Notes: generated by a model from the sequence alone, not told the origin. Counted from the stretch's first letter, positions 3,556-18,678 are shown. The stretch: 44,513 bases of DNA from a virus (IMGVR_UViG_3300008113_000095:1-44513); one strand, 5' to 3'. Translations and numbers: made by a program.

Positions 3556-3912
3556 TTATACATTATAATTGGAATTCTCTTCTCTAACTATTCTTGAAAA
3601 TGGTATAGTTTTAGGAGCTTTAGGTGGATGAATTTTTTTCCAACCTTTTTTCATTCCATTATGTGCTATCTGAGATATAAAAGCGAAAGGATTATCAGAT
3701 TTCTCCGGATCGTATCTGTTCCAATATTTTATTAGATCTTCTAATCCTGAAGATATACAATCTTCACGATCCTCATTATCTCTATAGGAATGTGTCTTAG
3801 ACATACCGTTAACGATAAGAGTAAACATTTTTACAGTTTCGTCTGTTAATTGGCCTTTCTCCTTGCTTTCTTGAAGAGCTCTTTTTAGTTCTTTGTTTTT
3901 AACGTAGATCAT
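3556..3912 (-). CDS. gp55: Late sigma factor (T4 gp55-like)
   Basis: 118 residues, shorter than T4 gp55 (185) but with the same core: MIYVKNKELKRAL at the start, then EDCISSGLEDLIKYWNRY and DPEKSDNPFAFISQIAHNGM (about 54-90). That is a sigma region-2-like segment with the FDPEKSxNPFAYxTQI signature typical of T4-type late sigma factors. It would direct host RNA polymerase to late promoters with a short -10-like box only. No region 4 is present, as in T4 gp55. The ATG at 3912 overlaps (ATGA) the stop of the ATG-less ORF at 3909-4160, so it may depend on frameshifting or read-in from upstream. Candidate target motifs are listed as promoter features. Confidence 0.82.
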   Translation of the reverse strand: MIYVKNKELKRALQESKEKGQLTDETVKMFTLIVNGMSKTHSYRDNEDREDCISSGLEDLIKYWNRYDPEKSDNPFAFISQIAHNGMKKGWKKIHPPKAPKTIPFSRIVREENSNYNV

Positions 3913-4160
3913 TCTTGTGTAGGAATATTATTTTGGAGTTTTTCTATTTGTTGTTCTAAATTTATCCTTAATTCATCCAAATTTTTCCTAGAATTTCTAA
4001 TTGTCTCTATACCTATTTTACCGTGTTCCTCGCTAGAAGTTTCCAATTCTTTTATTTTTTCTAGGCAATCTTTTAAATCGTCTAAAACAAAAATGAGTCT
4101 GTTGCCAATTCCATCTTCTGGAGATTTGTCAACAGACTCAAATATTTCGGTTTTATTTAC
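3909..4160 (-). CDS. ATG-less coiled-coil ORF, probable -1 frameshift extension of the 774-residue protein
   Basis: Hand translation shows 83 open codons from 4160 to the TGA at 3911-3909, with no ATG or GTG; only two inner TTG codons exist. The product is charged and helical (LDDLKDCLEKIKELE, then NLDELRINLEQQIEKL), a likely coiled coil. It begins in the -1 frame exactly at the end of the 774-residue gene, at a run of nine A ending in G. In the zero frame this reads AAA AAG followed by TAA, which makes an in-frame A AAA AAG heptamer. The ORF ends in an ATGA overlap with gp55. A fused product would be about 857 residues. An alternative is one under-called A in the run, which would simply make one gene. 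Confidence 0.6.
   Translation of the reverse strand, partial: VNKTEIFESVDKSPEDGIGNRLIFVLDDLKDCLEKIKELETSSEEHGKIGIETIRNSRKNLDELRINLEQQIEKLQNNIPTQE
4094..4140 (-). promoter_or_regulatory. Stem-loop downstream of slippery A-run
   Basis: An 11-bp perfect inverted repeat, arms 4094-4104 and 4130-4140 (core arm GAGTCTGTTG), with a further C-G and two A-T pairs possible after one mismatch. The loop is 25 bases. On the minus strand it starts 19 bases after the A AAA AAG heptamer (4166-4160), as expected for a frameshift stimulator although the spacer is longer than usual. The strand after the stem reads ATTTTTGTTTT, so an attenuator or terminator between the two genes is the alternative. Confidence 0.55.
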
Positions 4161-6481
4161 TTTTTTTTTGTCTTGGATCCTGGAGCGGATGAAAGGTTTG
4201 CTACCTTATCATCTTCTGCGAATCTTTTTCCATTCTTTTTGCTATGTCCTTGTGGTTCAGCAAAATTGAAATCATCTTCGTCTTCCATAAATCTTTTAGG
4301 CTTTGCAGCTTTAGGATTAGGAGCTTTCTCTATGTGAGAATTCTTTTGATTCTCTTTAAGAGTTGCTAATTTCATATTTTTGTTATCTTCTATGAATTTA
4401 GCAGATCCTTTAACCGAAGCGCTTGGTGCTTTAGCAAGATCTAAATTAGAAAGATCGTCTATGAATTTTTTACCAGATTTACCGTTATTCTTGCTTGGAA
4501 GATCTGCCATGTTAGCAGATTTAGCTTTAATACCTCTACCAGTTAGAGGAGCTTTTTTTCCAGATTTAGGAGTATCTGACATAGTTCCTTTTTGGTCGTC
4601 TATAAATTTAGGAGAAGATCCAGTCTTTTTGTCCGGAGCTGCAGCCATATATTTTTTAGAAAGACTTTCTATTCTAGAATCTTTGTGTTTACCACCTTTA
4701 GTACCAGGAGCTTCTGCAAAATTTTGGCTAGACTCGTTTGTATATTCAATGTCTAAGCTTGGAGTTTTGATGTCGTATCTGTCAACTTCATCATTTAAAT
4801 CCTCAACATCAGAGAAGAAATATTCACCAGTTTTTCCTTCTTGGAATAAAATAGTATAAGTCTTAGAATTACCATCAACTCCAATTACTCTTCCTTTGTT
4901 ACCGTTTCTTTTAATTCTTACTTCTGTATCGATAGGATATCCAAGATCTTCATTTACTGAAGGAACCTCTTTAGCAGATTTTTCAAATCTTGAAATCTCA
5001 ACGTTGATTTGGTTCCAACGGTCTTTAAGGTTTTCTAATTCTTCTTCAAGTCCTTCCTCTAGTGCAATAAATTCCGATGATCTAGTAAGTAATGGATTAA
5101 CTTCTTTAGCATTAGCTAATTTGTTTAATTCATTTTCTAAGATTTCTATATTCTTAATGATTTCATTCTTATCATTCTTCATCACACTTAAGAAAGCTTT
5201 TTCACCTTCTAAGAATTCAGTTAAAGATTCAGAGATATCATACTTAATAAAATCTTGAACGATGTTAATAGCTTGAGTTGCATTAGCCTCGTAGATTTTA
5301 TTTAATTTCATTGCTGGGTTAACAGTTTGAACATAGATTTTAGAACCAGTCTTAAATATGTTAGCTTCAACACCTTCGTAAACTTTAGATTTAATTTTCT
5401 TAGCAAAATCTAAATCTACGATCTCATCAGCATTGTTTACTATATAAACCGCCTTGTTGATTCTATTATTTGCACTTTCAAGTAAAGTGTTAGTAGAGAT
5501 ACTAACAGCTACAGGAACGTCTTCTTCTCTGATTTTCTTACCATCAAAATAAACTTCCTTAGATTCGTTAGTGTATACTATTTCTACCTTACTGTTTCCA
5601 ATGCTTAGAGAGATTTTGTTATCGTCTATTTTAACATCTCTATCTTCTATCATATTAGCTTGATTAGCTAATACAGTAGGAACCTCTTCAACTTGACATT
5701 CTTCGATAGTTCCTTGATTCTCGTCGATTTTTAAGAATTTTCCTGAAGAATAAAATACTGTTTCATTCTCGTTAACATAAATAGGAGAATATAAATTCTT
5801 AACCTCACATACGTTATTATCGAATCCTACATTGAATTTACCAGAATTTTCATTCTCATAGATCGATAAGAAACTAACAAGATTTCTAACCATCGGGTTA
5901 AATCCAAATCTTTTGATTCCATGAATAAGAGAATCTGTTGTTCTGTTTTCAGAAACTAACCAATTTTTCATTTGATCGGTAGCATCAGAGAAAAGTTCTC
6001 TACCAGGAGCATTTTTCATTGTCTCGTAAGTTTTAAGAACTTCGATTTCTCTTCTTCTAGAATCGTATGTATTAGTTAAGTTTTCTAAAACTGGAGTAAC
6101 TGAAGTTTCCCAAGAAAAAGATCTAAGATCGTTAAGGAAATCCTCAAAAACGAAAGCTTCAGATATACCTTTACCTACTAATAAATGATCGTATTTATTT
6201 AAGAACATCTTACCTGCAGGAAGTTCATTCAAAGATGAATTCTTCAAAGCTGCAACAGTATTGATAAGTCCAAAAGTAAATTCAGTTCTTGATTTAGATT
6301 TAGCAGAAATATCTGGCATCTGAGATTCATTAAGCATTTGAGCAGTAGCTCCTGTAAGGAAAGTAGAAGCAACAGGTGCTTTTTGAGCTCCTAATCCTGC
6401 CCACTCTCTTAAAGAATCAGCGGCTTTCTTAGAAGTCTCCATGTTTAATCTGTTGATCTCTGGATTAATATTGTTTTCCAT
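4157..6481 (-). CDS. Large virion/scaffold-type protein with KOW-like domain and C-terminal linear-motif repeats
   Basis: 774 residues; family not recognised. Residues 1-420 look globular and mixed alpha/beta. About 425-510 is a long charged helical region. About 518-565 is KOW/Tudor-like (VRIKRNGNKGRVIG, then TYTILFQEGKTGEYFF). From 576 to the end there are about seven copies of a motif: basic G/S/K linker, then K/R-F-(I/M/A)-(D/E)-D, then 6-8 residues and a hydrophobic (L/M)AxAP box. Examples are KKFIDDLSNLDLAKAP and KRFAEDDKVANLSSAP. The position between the fibre genes and the head genes suggests a virion or assembly role. A GATATATAC box lies 18 bases upstream of the ATG. The 3' end carries the frameshift signal described separately. 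Confidence 0.7.
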   Translation of the reverse strand: MENNINPEINRLNMETSKKAADSLREWAGLGAQKAPVASTFLTGATAQMLNESQMPDISAKSKSRTEFTFGLINTVAALKNSSLNELPAGKMFLNKYDHLLVGKGISEAFVFEDFLNDLRSFSWETSVTPVLENLTNTYDSRRREIEVLKTYETMKNAPGRELFSDATDQMKNWLVSENRTTDSLIHGIKRFGFNPMVRNLVSFLSIYENENSGKFNVGFDNNVCEVKNLYSPIYVNENETVFYSSGKFLKIDENQGTIEECQVEEVPTVLANQANMIEDRDVKIDDNKISLSIGNSKVEIVYTNESKEVYFDGKKIREEDVPVAVSISTNTLLESANNRINKAVYIVNNADEIVDLDFAKKIKSKVYEGVEANIFKTGSKIYVQTVNPAMKLNKIYEANATQAINIVQDFIKYDISESLTEFLEGEKAFLSVMKNDKNEIIKNIEILENELNKLANAKEVNPLLTRSSEFIALEEGLEEELENLKDRWNQINVEISRFEKSAKEVPSVNEDLGYPIDTEVRIKRNGNKGRVIGVDGNSKTYTILFQEGKTGEYFFSDVEDLNDEVDRYDIKTPSLDIEYTNESSQNFAEAPGTKGGKHKDSRIESLSKKYMAAAPDKKTGSSPKFIDDQKGTMSDTPKSGKKAPLTGRGIKAKSANMADLPSKNNGKSGKKFIDDLSNLDLAKAPSASVKGSAKFIEDNKNMKLATLKENQKNSHIEKAPNPKAAKPKRFMEDEDDFNFAEPQGHSKKNGKRFAEDDKVANLSSAPGSKTKKK

Positions 6482-6528: not shown

Positions 6529-8571
6529 TTATAATCCATACAGTTCTCTATTTGCATTAAAATTAGTTAATACGTTGTCAGAACTCAATGCGGATCCATA
6601 TATTCTTGCTATTCCTATTTTTCCGTTGAAATATTGTGAATATTCTCCATTATTATAACTACCCAAATAAAGATTTGCTGTTGTGTTTAATATTGAAGAA
6701 AAACTATGCGTAGTAGTTGACTGTTCAACCCCGTTAACATAGGTAATAATATTGTTATTTGCAACATTATTAAAAACATATGTTAATTGATACCAAGATC
6801 CTAAATTTAGTGCATAGCTAGAAGTATTAGTAGCAGTTGATCCGTCACCGAAATCAGCACGTACAGAACCATTAAGAACGCGTACTGCGTAGCATACATC
6901 TCGTGATGCTCCACCTGGATCAAACTTACCCAAAATTACCTGACTACCTGTTGATCCTGTCTGATTAACCCATACTTCTATAGTCCAATCTCCTGAACCA
7001 GGTTCTAATAGAGCATTATCTGAAATAGAAACCTGTGAATTCGTACCATTATATGTAAAACTAGGGTAATTAAACGTTACATTTGACATTGTACCATTTA
7101 ACGAATTCCCTGATAAATCGTTAACTGTTGTACCAGATCCGGGATAGCTTGTTAGATTGTCTGGATTAAAATATAGCCTTAAATTACTAGTAATGAAATT
7201 GGAATTCGTATAAACATGCTTTAAAGCATCATAGTTTTGTTTAATCTGTGCAGATGTTAATTTAGTATTATATAGCATCATATTTCCAACATAACCAAAA
7301 GGCTGACCAGCTAAATCATTATTACCTAACCCCCAATGTGTAGTTCCACCAGATCCATAAGAAATTGAGCTTCCTACCTGTGAGTCATTTATATAGAATG
7401 TTTGAGATGAATTATCACCAACAACTGAATATTGAACCCAAGTGTCTCCTAAAGATGAAAGGTCATATCCGGAGCTTCTGAAAGCAGTGTCCCAATATCC
7501 TAATATATTTGATCCATCAGGAATAGTAATTGGTGTGTATTTAGGGGAGTTTGTATAGAGAAGTGTTCTGAATGATGAATTACTACTAAGAATTCTAGCC
7601 CAAACAACATATGTATATCCGGTTGTAGGTAATGTCGGACCTGTACCATCAACTACAATTCTTTTATTTACTGTAGTACAATCAAAAGATTTAACTCCAT
7701 AAAGATTGGTGAATGCAGCTCCACTAGTTAAAGTATGTGTATAATTGTTACCGCTCATATCACTTACTGATGTGCCCGAAACAAAACTTTGTGGATCATT
7801 AGCATCTATCCAAATTAGCATATTATCTGCATATATGTAATTTGACTTAGTAGCATTATAATTATTAAGTATTTGTTGTTGACTAAGAACCCTATTATAT
7901 ACGTGGAAATCCCCAACTTTAACTTTTGCATAAGACCCATCACCCATGTTGGTAAAATCAGCAGCTGCAATTCCGTAATGTAGACCTGCACTTCCGCTGT
8001 ATGGGGCTGATCTTGTTAAATTAAGAGATCCTGCTAATTGAGCATTAACATATGCCCTTAATGTTGTACCATCGTATGTTAATCCTACGTAGTACCATTC
8101 ATTTATAGGTGTGCTAATTGACGATGTCAATGAAGTTACACCTGTTCCTGTCCATAGACCAAATTTTAATGATCCCGATACCATTTCTATTTGTGCATCG
8201 TGCCAAGATGTATTAAGTGTTGCCGATCCTTGCTCTGTTATAATAACACCATTATCCTGAGGGTATATCCAAATAAAATATGATATAATACTAGATGTAT
8301 TTGCTGGTGATAAATCGGGATTTAATGATGTATTTGTCATTAAATAATCATTGGTACCATCGAAGTTAATATATCCATTGGAAGAAAATCCAGGGCTATT
8401 TAATAGACTTCCGTTGCTGTTTCCTTGTAAGTCAACAACTGTGGAAGTTCCATTATAGGTATCTCGATTTTTTATCTCATATCTTAGGATTAATCCATTA
8501 GTAAGAAATCCTTTAATTGTACTAAAAAAATTAGATAGAGGCCCAGAAAAACTTGATAATCTGCCCAGCAT
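6529..8571 (-). CDS. Triple LamG-domain adhesin / receptor-binding protein
   Basis: 680 residues with three successive concanavalin A/LamG-like modules of about 210 residues (about 25-243, 247-455 and 458-680). Each begins with a strand leading to L(I)LRYE, MLIWIDAND or LRLYFNPDN. Each contains a short DLQGN, DMSGN or DLSGN box, and a fold-typical WY.VGLTYDG-like or WTIEVWV strand. Each closes with a helix: QQQILNNYNATK, SAQIKQNYDALK, SDNVLTNFNANRELYG. LamG modules bind carbohydrates and are common in tail fibres of phages of Bacteroidota and marine hosts. It follows the collagen-like gene by 2 bases, so the pair probably forms a fibre shaft and a binding tip. T/S/N-rich composition, no signal peptide. 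Confidence 0.8.
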   Translation of the reverse strand: MLGRLSSFSGPLSNFFSTIKGFLTNGLILRYEIKNRDTYNGTSTVVDLQGNSNGSLLNSPGFSSNGYINFDGTNDYLMTNTSLNPDLSPANTSSIISYFIWIYPQDNGVIITEQGSATLNTSWHDAQIEMVSGSLKFGLWTGTGVTSLTSSISTPINEWYYVGLTYDGTTLRAYVNAQLAGSLNLTRSAPYSGSAGLHYGIAAADFTNMGDGSYAKVKVGDFHVYNRVLSQQQILNNYNATKSNYIYADNMLIWIDANDPQSFVSGTSVSDMSGNNYTHTLTSGAAFTNLYGVKSFDCTTVNKRIVVDGTGPTLPTTGYTYVVWARILSSNSSFRTLLYTNSPKYTPITIPDGSNILGYWDTAFRSSGYDLSSLGDTWVQYSVVGDNSSQTFYINDSQVGSSISYGSGGTTHWGLGNNDLAGQPFGYVGNMMLYNTKLTSAQIKQNYDALKHVYTNSNFITSNLRLYFNPDNLTSYPGSGTTVNDLSGNSLNGTMSNVTFNYPSFTYNGTNSQVSISDNALLEPGSGDWTIEVWVNQTGSTGSQVILGKFDPGGASRDVCYAVRVLNGSVRADFGDGSTATNTSSYALNLGSWYQLTYVFNNVANNNIITYVNGVEQSTTTHSFSSILNTTANLYLGSYNNGEYSQYFNGKIGIARIYGSALSSDNVLTNFNANRELYGL

Positions 8572-8573
8572 AA

Positions 8574-9494
8574 TTATACGAATGTATTTATTTGGCCTAG
8601 AACCTGAGCCCAGTCACTACCACTTCTTATAAAAGTAAAACCAACTACGTCTACTTGATTTGAAGATCCTACTGCTGATCCTCCTGCCCATTTGATTGTT
8701 TTTGAAACACCACCTATTTGTAGTGCAGTAGGAATATATGCAGTAGCTCCTTGATTAATTAAAATAGATACTGTTATTGCTCTATTGTTATCAGTAGGTA
8801 AGTTTGTAAAGTTTGCAGTGAAGTTGGTAGTTGCTGATGAATGATACCATATTGATCCCGTTGAAAAATCATATGTTATCGTTGAAGAGTTAGCTACACT
8901 TGAATTTATTACTTCTATTACTTCTGCAATATTAGTAGATCCAGAAACTGTAAGATCCCCTGATAACGATAAGTCTGTGCTAGGAGATGTTCCTGACGAC
9001 CCTGATGTTCCTGAAGATCCTGATGTTCCAGAAGGACCGGAAGTACCACTAGTTCCTGAAGATCCACTAGTTCCACTATTTCCTGAAGATCCACTAGTTC
9101 CTGAAGATCCACTAGTTCCTGAAGATCCACTAGTTCCTGAAGATCCACTAGACCCACTAGTTCCTGAAGACCCACTAGACCCACTAGTTCCTGAAGATCC
9201 TGGAGATCCACTAGTTCCTGAAGACCCACTAGTTCCTGAAGACCCACTAGTTCCTGAAGACCCACTAGTTCCTGAAGTTCCTGAAGACCCACTGGATCCA
9301 GAAGTTCCGGAGGTACCACTAGACCCAGAAGATCCGCTAGTTCCAGATGTTCCAGATTCTCCTGTTGGACCTGCGGAAACTATTGTTGATTGAGGAAATT
9401 TGGCTGTTGATCCGTTATGTAATCCCAATAAAAAATCACCATCGTTGAATCCGTCTGCTTGAGGATAATTAGATATAGGCCTTTTTCTGTTCAT
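8574..9494 (-). CDS. Collagen-like fibre protein
   Basis: 306 residues. Residues 1-40 are an N-terminal domain (FNDGDFLLGLHNGSTAKFP) of the type that attaches phage fibre proteins. About 41-170 are near-perfect Gly-X-Y triplets, nearly all GTS or GSS, starting GPTGESGTSG; this should form a trimeric collagen helix. About 171-306 is a C-terminal beta-rich domain (LSGDLTVSGSTNIAEV to the end) probably acting as trimerisation head. Collagen-like proteins with this layout are common in phage tail fibres. The underlying DNA is a long tandem repeat, so copy number may vary between relatives. Antisense frames open through the repeat are shadows. Confidence 0.85.
   Translation of the reverse strand: MNRKRPISNYPQADGFNDGDFLLGLHNGSTAKFPQSTIVSAGPTGESGTSGTSGSSGSSGTSGTSGSSGSSGTSGTSGSSGTSGSSGTSGSSGTSGSPGSSGTSGSSGSSGTSGSSGSSGTSGSSGTSGSSGTSGSSGNSGTSGSSGTSGTSGPSGTSGSSGTSGSSGTSPSTDLSLSGDLTVSGSTNIAEVIEVINSSVANSSTITYDFSTGSIWYHSSATTNFTANFTNLPTDNNRAITVSILINQGATAYIPTALQIGGVSKTIKWAGGSAVGSSNQVDVVGFTFIRSGSDWAQVLGQINTFV
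8985..9365 (-). repeat. Tandem 9-base-type repeat encoding Gly-Thr-Ser/Gly-Ser-Ser
   Basis: The plus strand repeats units such as ccactagttcctgaagat and close variants. This encodes the collagen-like triplets on the minus strand. The array is degenerate at its edges and most regular between about 9050 and 9270. Confidence 0.85.
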
Positions 9495-18650: not shown

Positions 18651-18678
18651 AAATGGAGACTTTGTCGAGTCTCCATTT
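18651..18678 (-). terminator. Strong intrinsic terminator after tail tube genes
   Basis: Perfect 11-bp stem, arms 18651-18661 and 18668-18678 (AAATGGAGACT and complement), 6-base loop, followed on the minus strand by TTTTTTGTTTT. It ends the sheath/tube transcript. Confidence 0.8.

Follow-up and report, generated by a model that had tools for sequence, protein, structure and literature searches.

A small number of bacterial genes and insertion sequences are known to make productive use of transcriptional slippage. It occurs with high efficiency in vivo at nine As or Ts (reviewed in PMC5009743), and a run of nine As whose length is conserved in all homologues is, by the criterion of Baranov and colleagues, very likely to be a site of purposeful transcriptional slippage (PMC1088944). 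In the Shigella flexneri gene spa13, slippage affects the expression of spa32 (PMC5009743). For tailed phages, our search of the literature turned up no structural or assembly gene with demonstrated slippage; the sole case was a suggestion concerning the methyltransferase of a Campylobacter phage (PMC2853527). Here, we describe a nine-A run at the end of a 774-codon gene in IMGVR_UViG_3300008113_000095, a 44.5-kb viral contig that was analysed over its whole length (the window; all coordinates refer to the whole window, and the locus is read on the minus strand). The run is probably a programmed transcriptional slippage site, and recoding of one kind or another at this junction is very likely. 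The features of the locus are as follows:

4157–6481, minus strand: frame-0 gene encoding 774 amino acids (aa), an open reading frame (ORF) read 6481–4157 that ends ACA AAA AAA AAG TAA
4161–4169, minus strand: nine-A run, the putative slip site (A9 in 58 of 59 distinct relatives)
4160–4166, minus strand: A_AAA_AAG heptamer, present here; its last base is not conserved in relatives (AAG, AAC, AAT or AAA)
4157–4159, minus strand: frame-0 stop TAA directly after the run (TAA or TAG in 59 of 59 relatives)
3909–4160, minus strand: extension ORF of 83 codons and a TGA stop, in the −1 (= +1 A) frame
4130–4140, minus strand: 5′ arm of a hairpin, with conserved pairing
4094–4104, minus strand: 3′ arm of the hairpin, with compensatory changes (C-G/U-A and G-C/A-U)
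4084–4093, minus strand: T-rich tract after the stem, TTTTGTTTTA; stem and tract are read as a putative intrinsic terminator
3556–3912, minus strand: gene for a gp55-like late sigma factor (PHROG 234, E 1.4e-17; Sigma70_r2 above cut-off)

In the window, the run is followed by a G (4160), and the TGA of the extension (3911–3909) overlaps the ATG of the gp55-like gene as ATGA. An earlier reading made from the sequence alone (the sequence-only reading) had described A_AAA_AAG at 4166–4160 before TAA, an 83-codon −1 frame that runs without ATG or GTG to the ATGA overlap with gp55, an extended protein of 857 residues, and an 11-bp stem (4140–4130/4104–4094) behind a 19-nucleotide (nt) spacer. All of these are correct, the heptamer to the base and the protein length as 774 + 83 = 857. 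The coiled coil that it proposed for the extension is in keeping with the predicted structure, a two-helix hairpin (residues 18–46 and 51–77) with a block mean pLDDT (predicted local distance difference test score) of mostly 76–94 over the helices. Searches of Pfam and PDB for a known domain in the extension returned only coiled-coil-type matches below cut-off.

To collect relatives, IMG/VR was scanned with the 774-aa protein and its extension, with the sigma protein and with an alignment of 21 sequences; the relatives reach down to ~30% identity of the 774-aa protein, and 59 distinct junctions were taken. Every junction reads xxA AAA AAA AAN stop, with nine As in 58 and ten in one. The codon preceding the run is ACA, TCA, GCA, AGA, CTA or TTA, and the codon that ends it is AAG, AAC, AAT or AAA. 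Past the run, the −1 (= +1 A) frame is open for 57–86 codons in 59 of 59, and the frame that results from deleting one A closes after 1–7 codons in the relatives listed. On a tree of 52 proteins, made with the terminal codons left out, the minimum number of changes is 5 for the base after the run, 13 for the codon before it and 2 for the presence of the run. A pattern scan of the whole collection for the commonest form of the junction found nine As in 45 contigs, 44 of which belong to the family, and eight or ten As in none. The 45th contig, L230, is an unrelated chance match.

The extension itself bears the marks of a selected protein segment. The helical extension is common to clades I (the window's) and II, and positions in ...LKELETSS...KIG... 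are invariant. The extension of clade III is another one, of 57–61 residues (LKxxLSxVWxFAP...MSVAPDGK...), and includes a motif similar to the repeats in the frame-0 tail. Across 37 aligned extensions from the window's clade and its neighbours, the ratio of nonsynonymous to synonymous polymorphism (pN/pS) is 0.44 in the used frame versus 0.90 and 1.50 in the other frames, and past codon 25 it is 0.36 versus 0.80 and 1.79. By this measure, the extension in the window's clade is under purifying selection in the used frame. The first 15 codons of the extension vary freely, as a linker would. Over the first 20 codons past the run, summed across the 59 relatives, the used frame contains no stop, whereas frame 0 contains 112 and the third frame 177. 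An extension-initial Val is encoded by GTA in 46 of 46 cases; of the 151 Val codons at other positions of the extensions, 43 are GTA. Because relatives are counted separately, these figures are descriptive and do not amount to independent tests. GTA is fixed at that position because an in-frame TAA or TAG requires it. The frame-0 stop is thus conserved too, and therefore both products appear to be selected and are probably both made. The end of the extension is tied to gp55 to different degrees: its stop overlaps or touches the gp55 start in 36 of 36 members of clade I (ATGA in 32, the TAATG/TGATG type in 4) and overlaps it in 8 of 13 members of clade II, the other 5 stopping shortly before, and in clade III the extension ends before gp55, with other genes between them in some members.

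Natural losses of the site serve as controls. The run and the extension are lost together, and the terminator stays. Specifically, in L108, L114/L160 and L151, which have no A run, the frames after the stop are open for just 2, 3 and 24 codons, and each has a hairpin and T-tract immediately behind the stop codon, which reads as an ordinary terminator. The three losses are independent-looking. By eye, decayed-looking remnants of the extension (GGAAACTT-type) lie before gp55 in L151 (~7310–7560), L108 (~870–1065), L114 and L160, each behind a clean terminator.

What is conserved at the site is the length of the A run and not the heptamer. Nine As are kept and the next base is free, which favours the polymerase, because a ribosomal heptamer needs only six As and one further base. 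The codon before the run argues in the same direction, since it always ends in A although ACT, TCT and GCT are commoner in these genes than ACA, TCA and GCA. The run is also the only one of nine or more As in the window, where synonymous shuffles predict 4.3 in coding sequence. We surveyed homopolymers in six long relatives (~900 kb of coding sequence), again with expectations from synonymous shuffles. Exact A7 runs are near expectation (ratios of 0.85–1.25 by phase), A8 runs fall to 0.47–0.71, and runs of nine or more As fall to 0.13–0.23 in all three phases; of these last, 18 were observed where 102 were expected, and the site described here accounts for 6 of them. The avoidance depends on length and not on phase and therefore matches slippage by RNA polymerase, whereas ribosomal slipperiness would be phase-dependent. 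Three features expected of a transcriptional slippage site were found: an A or T run of about nine or more with a conserved length, an open and selected alternative frame, and avoidance of such runs elsewhere. We infer that at A9 in this lineage it is RNA polymerase, rather than the ribosome, that slips.

Some points weigh against this assignment. Runs of six and seven As have a mild phase bias (0.89 and 0.85 in phase 2, 1.24 and 1.25 in phase 0), which hints at some ribosomal slipperiness too. The junction xxA AAA AAA AAN also holds two overlapping slippery heptamers, and the translation of poly-A Lys codons is itself able to slide (PMC4363877). Finally, the synonymous-shuffle null keeps codon usage and not codon-pair preferences.

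If the polymerase does slip, RNA polymerase transcribing A9 would insert an extra A in a fraction of transcripts. Transcripts with nine As would be translated into the 774-aa protein, with an immediate stop, and those with ten As into an 857-aa protein that gains a two-helix domain at its C terminus. Selection would maintain both, presumably as the major (short) and the minor (long) form of a single protein of the phage particle or its assembly, the hairpin and T-tract being the operon's intrinsic terminator, placed within the extension.

The sequence-only reading had instead proposed a programmed −1 ribosomal frameshift at A_AAA_AAG, to which the overlapping A_AAA_AAA can be added, with the hairpin as stimulator. 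We consider this unlikely, although the correct heptamer is present in at least 46 of 59 relatives, a strong conserved hairpin lies downstream, A_AAA_AAG with a stimulator is among the most shift-prone motifs in E. coli (PMC4066793), and in a related genome the anticodon UUU, and not CUU, is found among Lys tRNAs. A heptamer of the A_AAA_AAN class occurs in all relatives, with a variable last base and with conservation reaching past the motif: AAC, AAT and AAA replace AAG with A9 intact, motifs with a non-homogeneous ZZN shift less in E. coli (PMC4066793), and the ninth A is conserved though no heptamer needs one. Bacterial frameshift stimulators generally start 5–8 nt downstream of the motif (PMC4066793), whereas the stem here is spaced by 16–28 nt or ~94 nt; a stimulatory structure at a fixed short distance of 5–8 nt is absent across clades I–III, and no conserved Shine–Dalgarno-like element was seen upstream, by eye, in the junction sequences. 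What is supported of the proposal is a programmed event at the A run that adds 83 residues; the refuting conditions that the sequence-only reading had set come out in favour of recoding, with run, frame and stem all conserved in homologues. A_AAA_AAG as the unit, with the stem as its stimulator, is not supported: the length of the run is held while the base after it varies, the stem is widely and variably spaced, and a terminator hairpin persists where run and extension are lost.

The 83-codon ORF could also be read as a separate gene, entered at an unusual start of its own or by re-initiation after the frame-0 stop, with the A run incidental. The compactness and conservation of the domain, the poor conservation of its first 15 codons and the close packing of genes here, with overlapping stops and starts, would suit such a gene. 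The plain start codon in homologues that, as the sequence-only reading pointed out, would speak for it is rare, with ATG or GTG within the first 25 codons in only 8 of 59, and a separate start was rejected on this ground. The frame is open right up to the run in 59 of 59 (no stops, versus 112 and 177 in the other frames), and a separate gene leaves the strict conservation of A9 and the joint loss of run and extension unexplained; it is therefore very improbable. That the A run is an error of sequencing or assembly, the true gene being a single open frame with ten As, has next to no probability. Homopolymers are error-prone, but 58 of 59 distinct sequences from many metagenomes have A9, the frame-0 stop is present in all, GTA is fixed where other Val codons are used elsewhere, and the single-frame version with ten As that the sequence-only reading had allowed for is nowhere in the collection in the commonest form, nor is one with eight. 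With 44 family contigs at A9 and none at A8 or A10, assembly error is excluded as a family-wide explanation, being refuted for the family by the agreement of the junctions together with the collection scan.

A cluster of 26 tRNA genes at L189:10531–19031 (relative G004) has UUU as its only Lys anticodon. At L206:580–2241 (relative G005), a different gene, of 553 aa, ends CTA AAA AAA AAT TAA (A9); its −1 frame is open for at least 110 codons, with ATG at the third codon, and may represent either a further slip site or simply a gene that overlaps. Other genes with A9 near their ends are found at L225:2956–3519, with no extension, and at L213:7353–7844 (complement), followed by an ATGA-overlapping ORF.

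The hairpin resembles an intrinsic terminator whose place within the extension would be incidental; we infer this activity from its layout and history. The stem region of the window folds at −23 kcal/mol (z = −4.8), and folding z values in four relatives are −4.4 to −6.4. In clade I the hairpin has at least 11 pairs, with 93.8% of cells paired versus 21.8–44.8% when the partner column is slid. It starts 16–24 nt past the run's last codon in clade I, ~20–28 nt past it in clade II and ~94 nt past it in clade III. The stem sequence is replaced between clades (GAGTCTG versus GAGTTCG) while T-richness stays; the T-rich tail is present in clades I and II and weak in clade III. The A-tract/stem/T-tract layout, the replacement of the stem and its persistence without the run together fit an intrinsic terminator. 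An Rfam search found nothing, and a scan for the generic terminator pattern passed over the hairpin, whose loop is above the maximum of 8 set in that scan. That miss, the interruption of several T-tracts (as in TTTTGTTTTA) and the short tract of clade III (ATTTCTC) would suit an element other than a terminator, acting in RNA stability or processing or as a spacing-independent part in recoding. This is the less probable reading, with a modest share of the probability, since it has to be set against the A-tract/stem/T-tract layout, the swapping of the stem between clades with T-richness kept, and the clean terminators that occupy this position in relatives lacking the extension. Elsewhere in the window, a strong hairpin like that of an intrinsic terminator lies at 18678–18651 (minus strand; AAATGGAGACT...AGTCTCCATTTTTTG) and shows what the clean form looks like in this phage.

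A spa13-like arrangement with gp55, and a terminator that only slipped-frame ribosomes cross, suggests that the slip might also be a switch for the late sigma factor, that is, an attenuator gated by transcriptional slippage. On a nine-A transcript, the ribosome would stop 16 nt before the hairpin, which would fold and end transcription. On a ten-A transcript, the ribosome would trail the polymerase through the hairpin, prevent termination and end on the gp55 start. One extra A would then both make the long protein and let gp55 be transcribed and translated. We regard this as speculative and quite unlikely.

The 774-aa protein is predicted to consist of a helical and beta core, a long helix and a small Tudor/KOW-like beta domain (approximately residues 515–566), followed by ~200 C-terminal residues of predicted disorder with degenerate repeats of the form K-K-F-I-D-D...L-A-x-A-P-G. 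The core model is confident across much of residues 70–560, and the last 200 residues are disordered. The repeats of the tail (4157–4760, minus strand) include KKFIDDL...LAKAPS, AKFIEDN..., KRFMEDE... and KRFAEDD...LSSAPG, and they possibly represent a short binding motif repeated. Neither PHROG (E ≤ 0.01) nor Pfam (at the family cut-offs) gave a match to the protein, and its sequence matched nothing in PDB. With Foldseek, the sole PDB matches are weak ones to the small Tudor-like beta domain, with E above 0.02, and the BFVD matches are uncharacterised phage proteins. Distant relatives were found in Prevotella Lak phages and LR756500.1 by sequence and in Tenacibaculum phage PTm1 by fold. In Chryseobacterium phage MA9V-2 and in LR756500.1, both of which have the sigma neighbour, the disordered tail, A9 and the extension are all absent, and the slip site therefore seems confined to the clade with the disordered repeat tail. 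Our working picture, drawn only from the position of the gene, is of a particle or assembly protein with a short form and a minor long form.

The genes around the locus are closely packed, with stops overlapping starts. Beyond the gp55-like gene lie genes for a gp4-like head closure protein, a gp2-like DNA end protector and a gp20-like portal (PHROG/Pfam matches), and the locus is therefore placed in the structural region of a T4-like phage. On the other side, the gene for a 680-aa protein with repeated concanavalin/LamG-like stretches (6529–8571) adjoins that for a collagen-like GTSGSSG repeat protein (8574–9494, minus strand), and the two resemble variable adhesin or fibre genes. Bacteroidota are the hosts of the closest relatives that have a name, which are the Prevotella Lak phages when sequences are compared and Tenacibaculum phage PTm1 when folds are. 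A search for a gp55 relative in plasmids found none, and no laboratory-grown phage with the A9 site was found here.

Taken as a slip site, the locus would offer a nine-A run held to the base in a phage family diverged to ~30% protein identity. The AAG/AAC/AAT/AAA series after the run is a natural set for separating slippage of the polymerase from that of the ribosome. Gene callers miss the conserved C-terminal domain of the protein encoded by the 774-aa gene. A terminator-like hairpin in an alternative ORF beside a late sigma gene further raises a possible link between frame choice and late gene expression.

Of the described systems, Shigella flexneri spa13 (PMC5009743) is similar in that transcriptional slippage, putative here, yields a longer protein with a C-terminal extension (112 aa in spa13, 83 here), and in that the sequence coding for the extension runs into the start of the following gene, spa32 in Shigella and gp55 here. 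It differs in that spa13 slips early, after 58 codons, whereas the run here occupies the last sense codons of a 774-codon gene; moreover, the present system belongs to a lytic-type T4-like phage, carries a terminator-like hairpin inside the extension and is known from its sequence. Thermus thermophilus dnaX (PMC1088944, PMC5009743) shares the run of exactly nine As on the sense strand, where polymerase slippage gives two products, as it would here; the unslipped product is the long one in Thermus, whereas slippage would make the long one here. The −1 ribosomal frameshift of E. coli dnaX likewise has A_AAA_AAG and a downstream stem, but the spacing of the stem and the conservation of the motif do not fit, and frame 0 gives the short product in our case. 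Lastly, the frameshifts of tail assembly chaperones (HK97-related cluster, PMC3711429) resemble the proposed system in making two C-terminal variants from one phage structural or assembly gene, although the gene and its position are unrelated and the chaperone shift is ribosomal.

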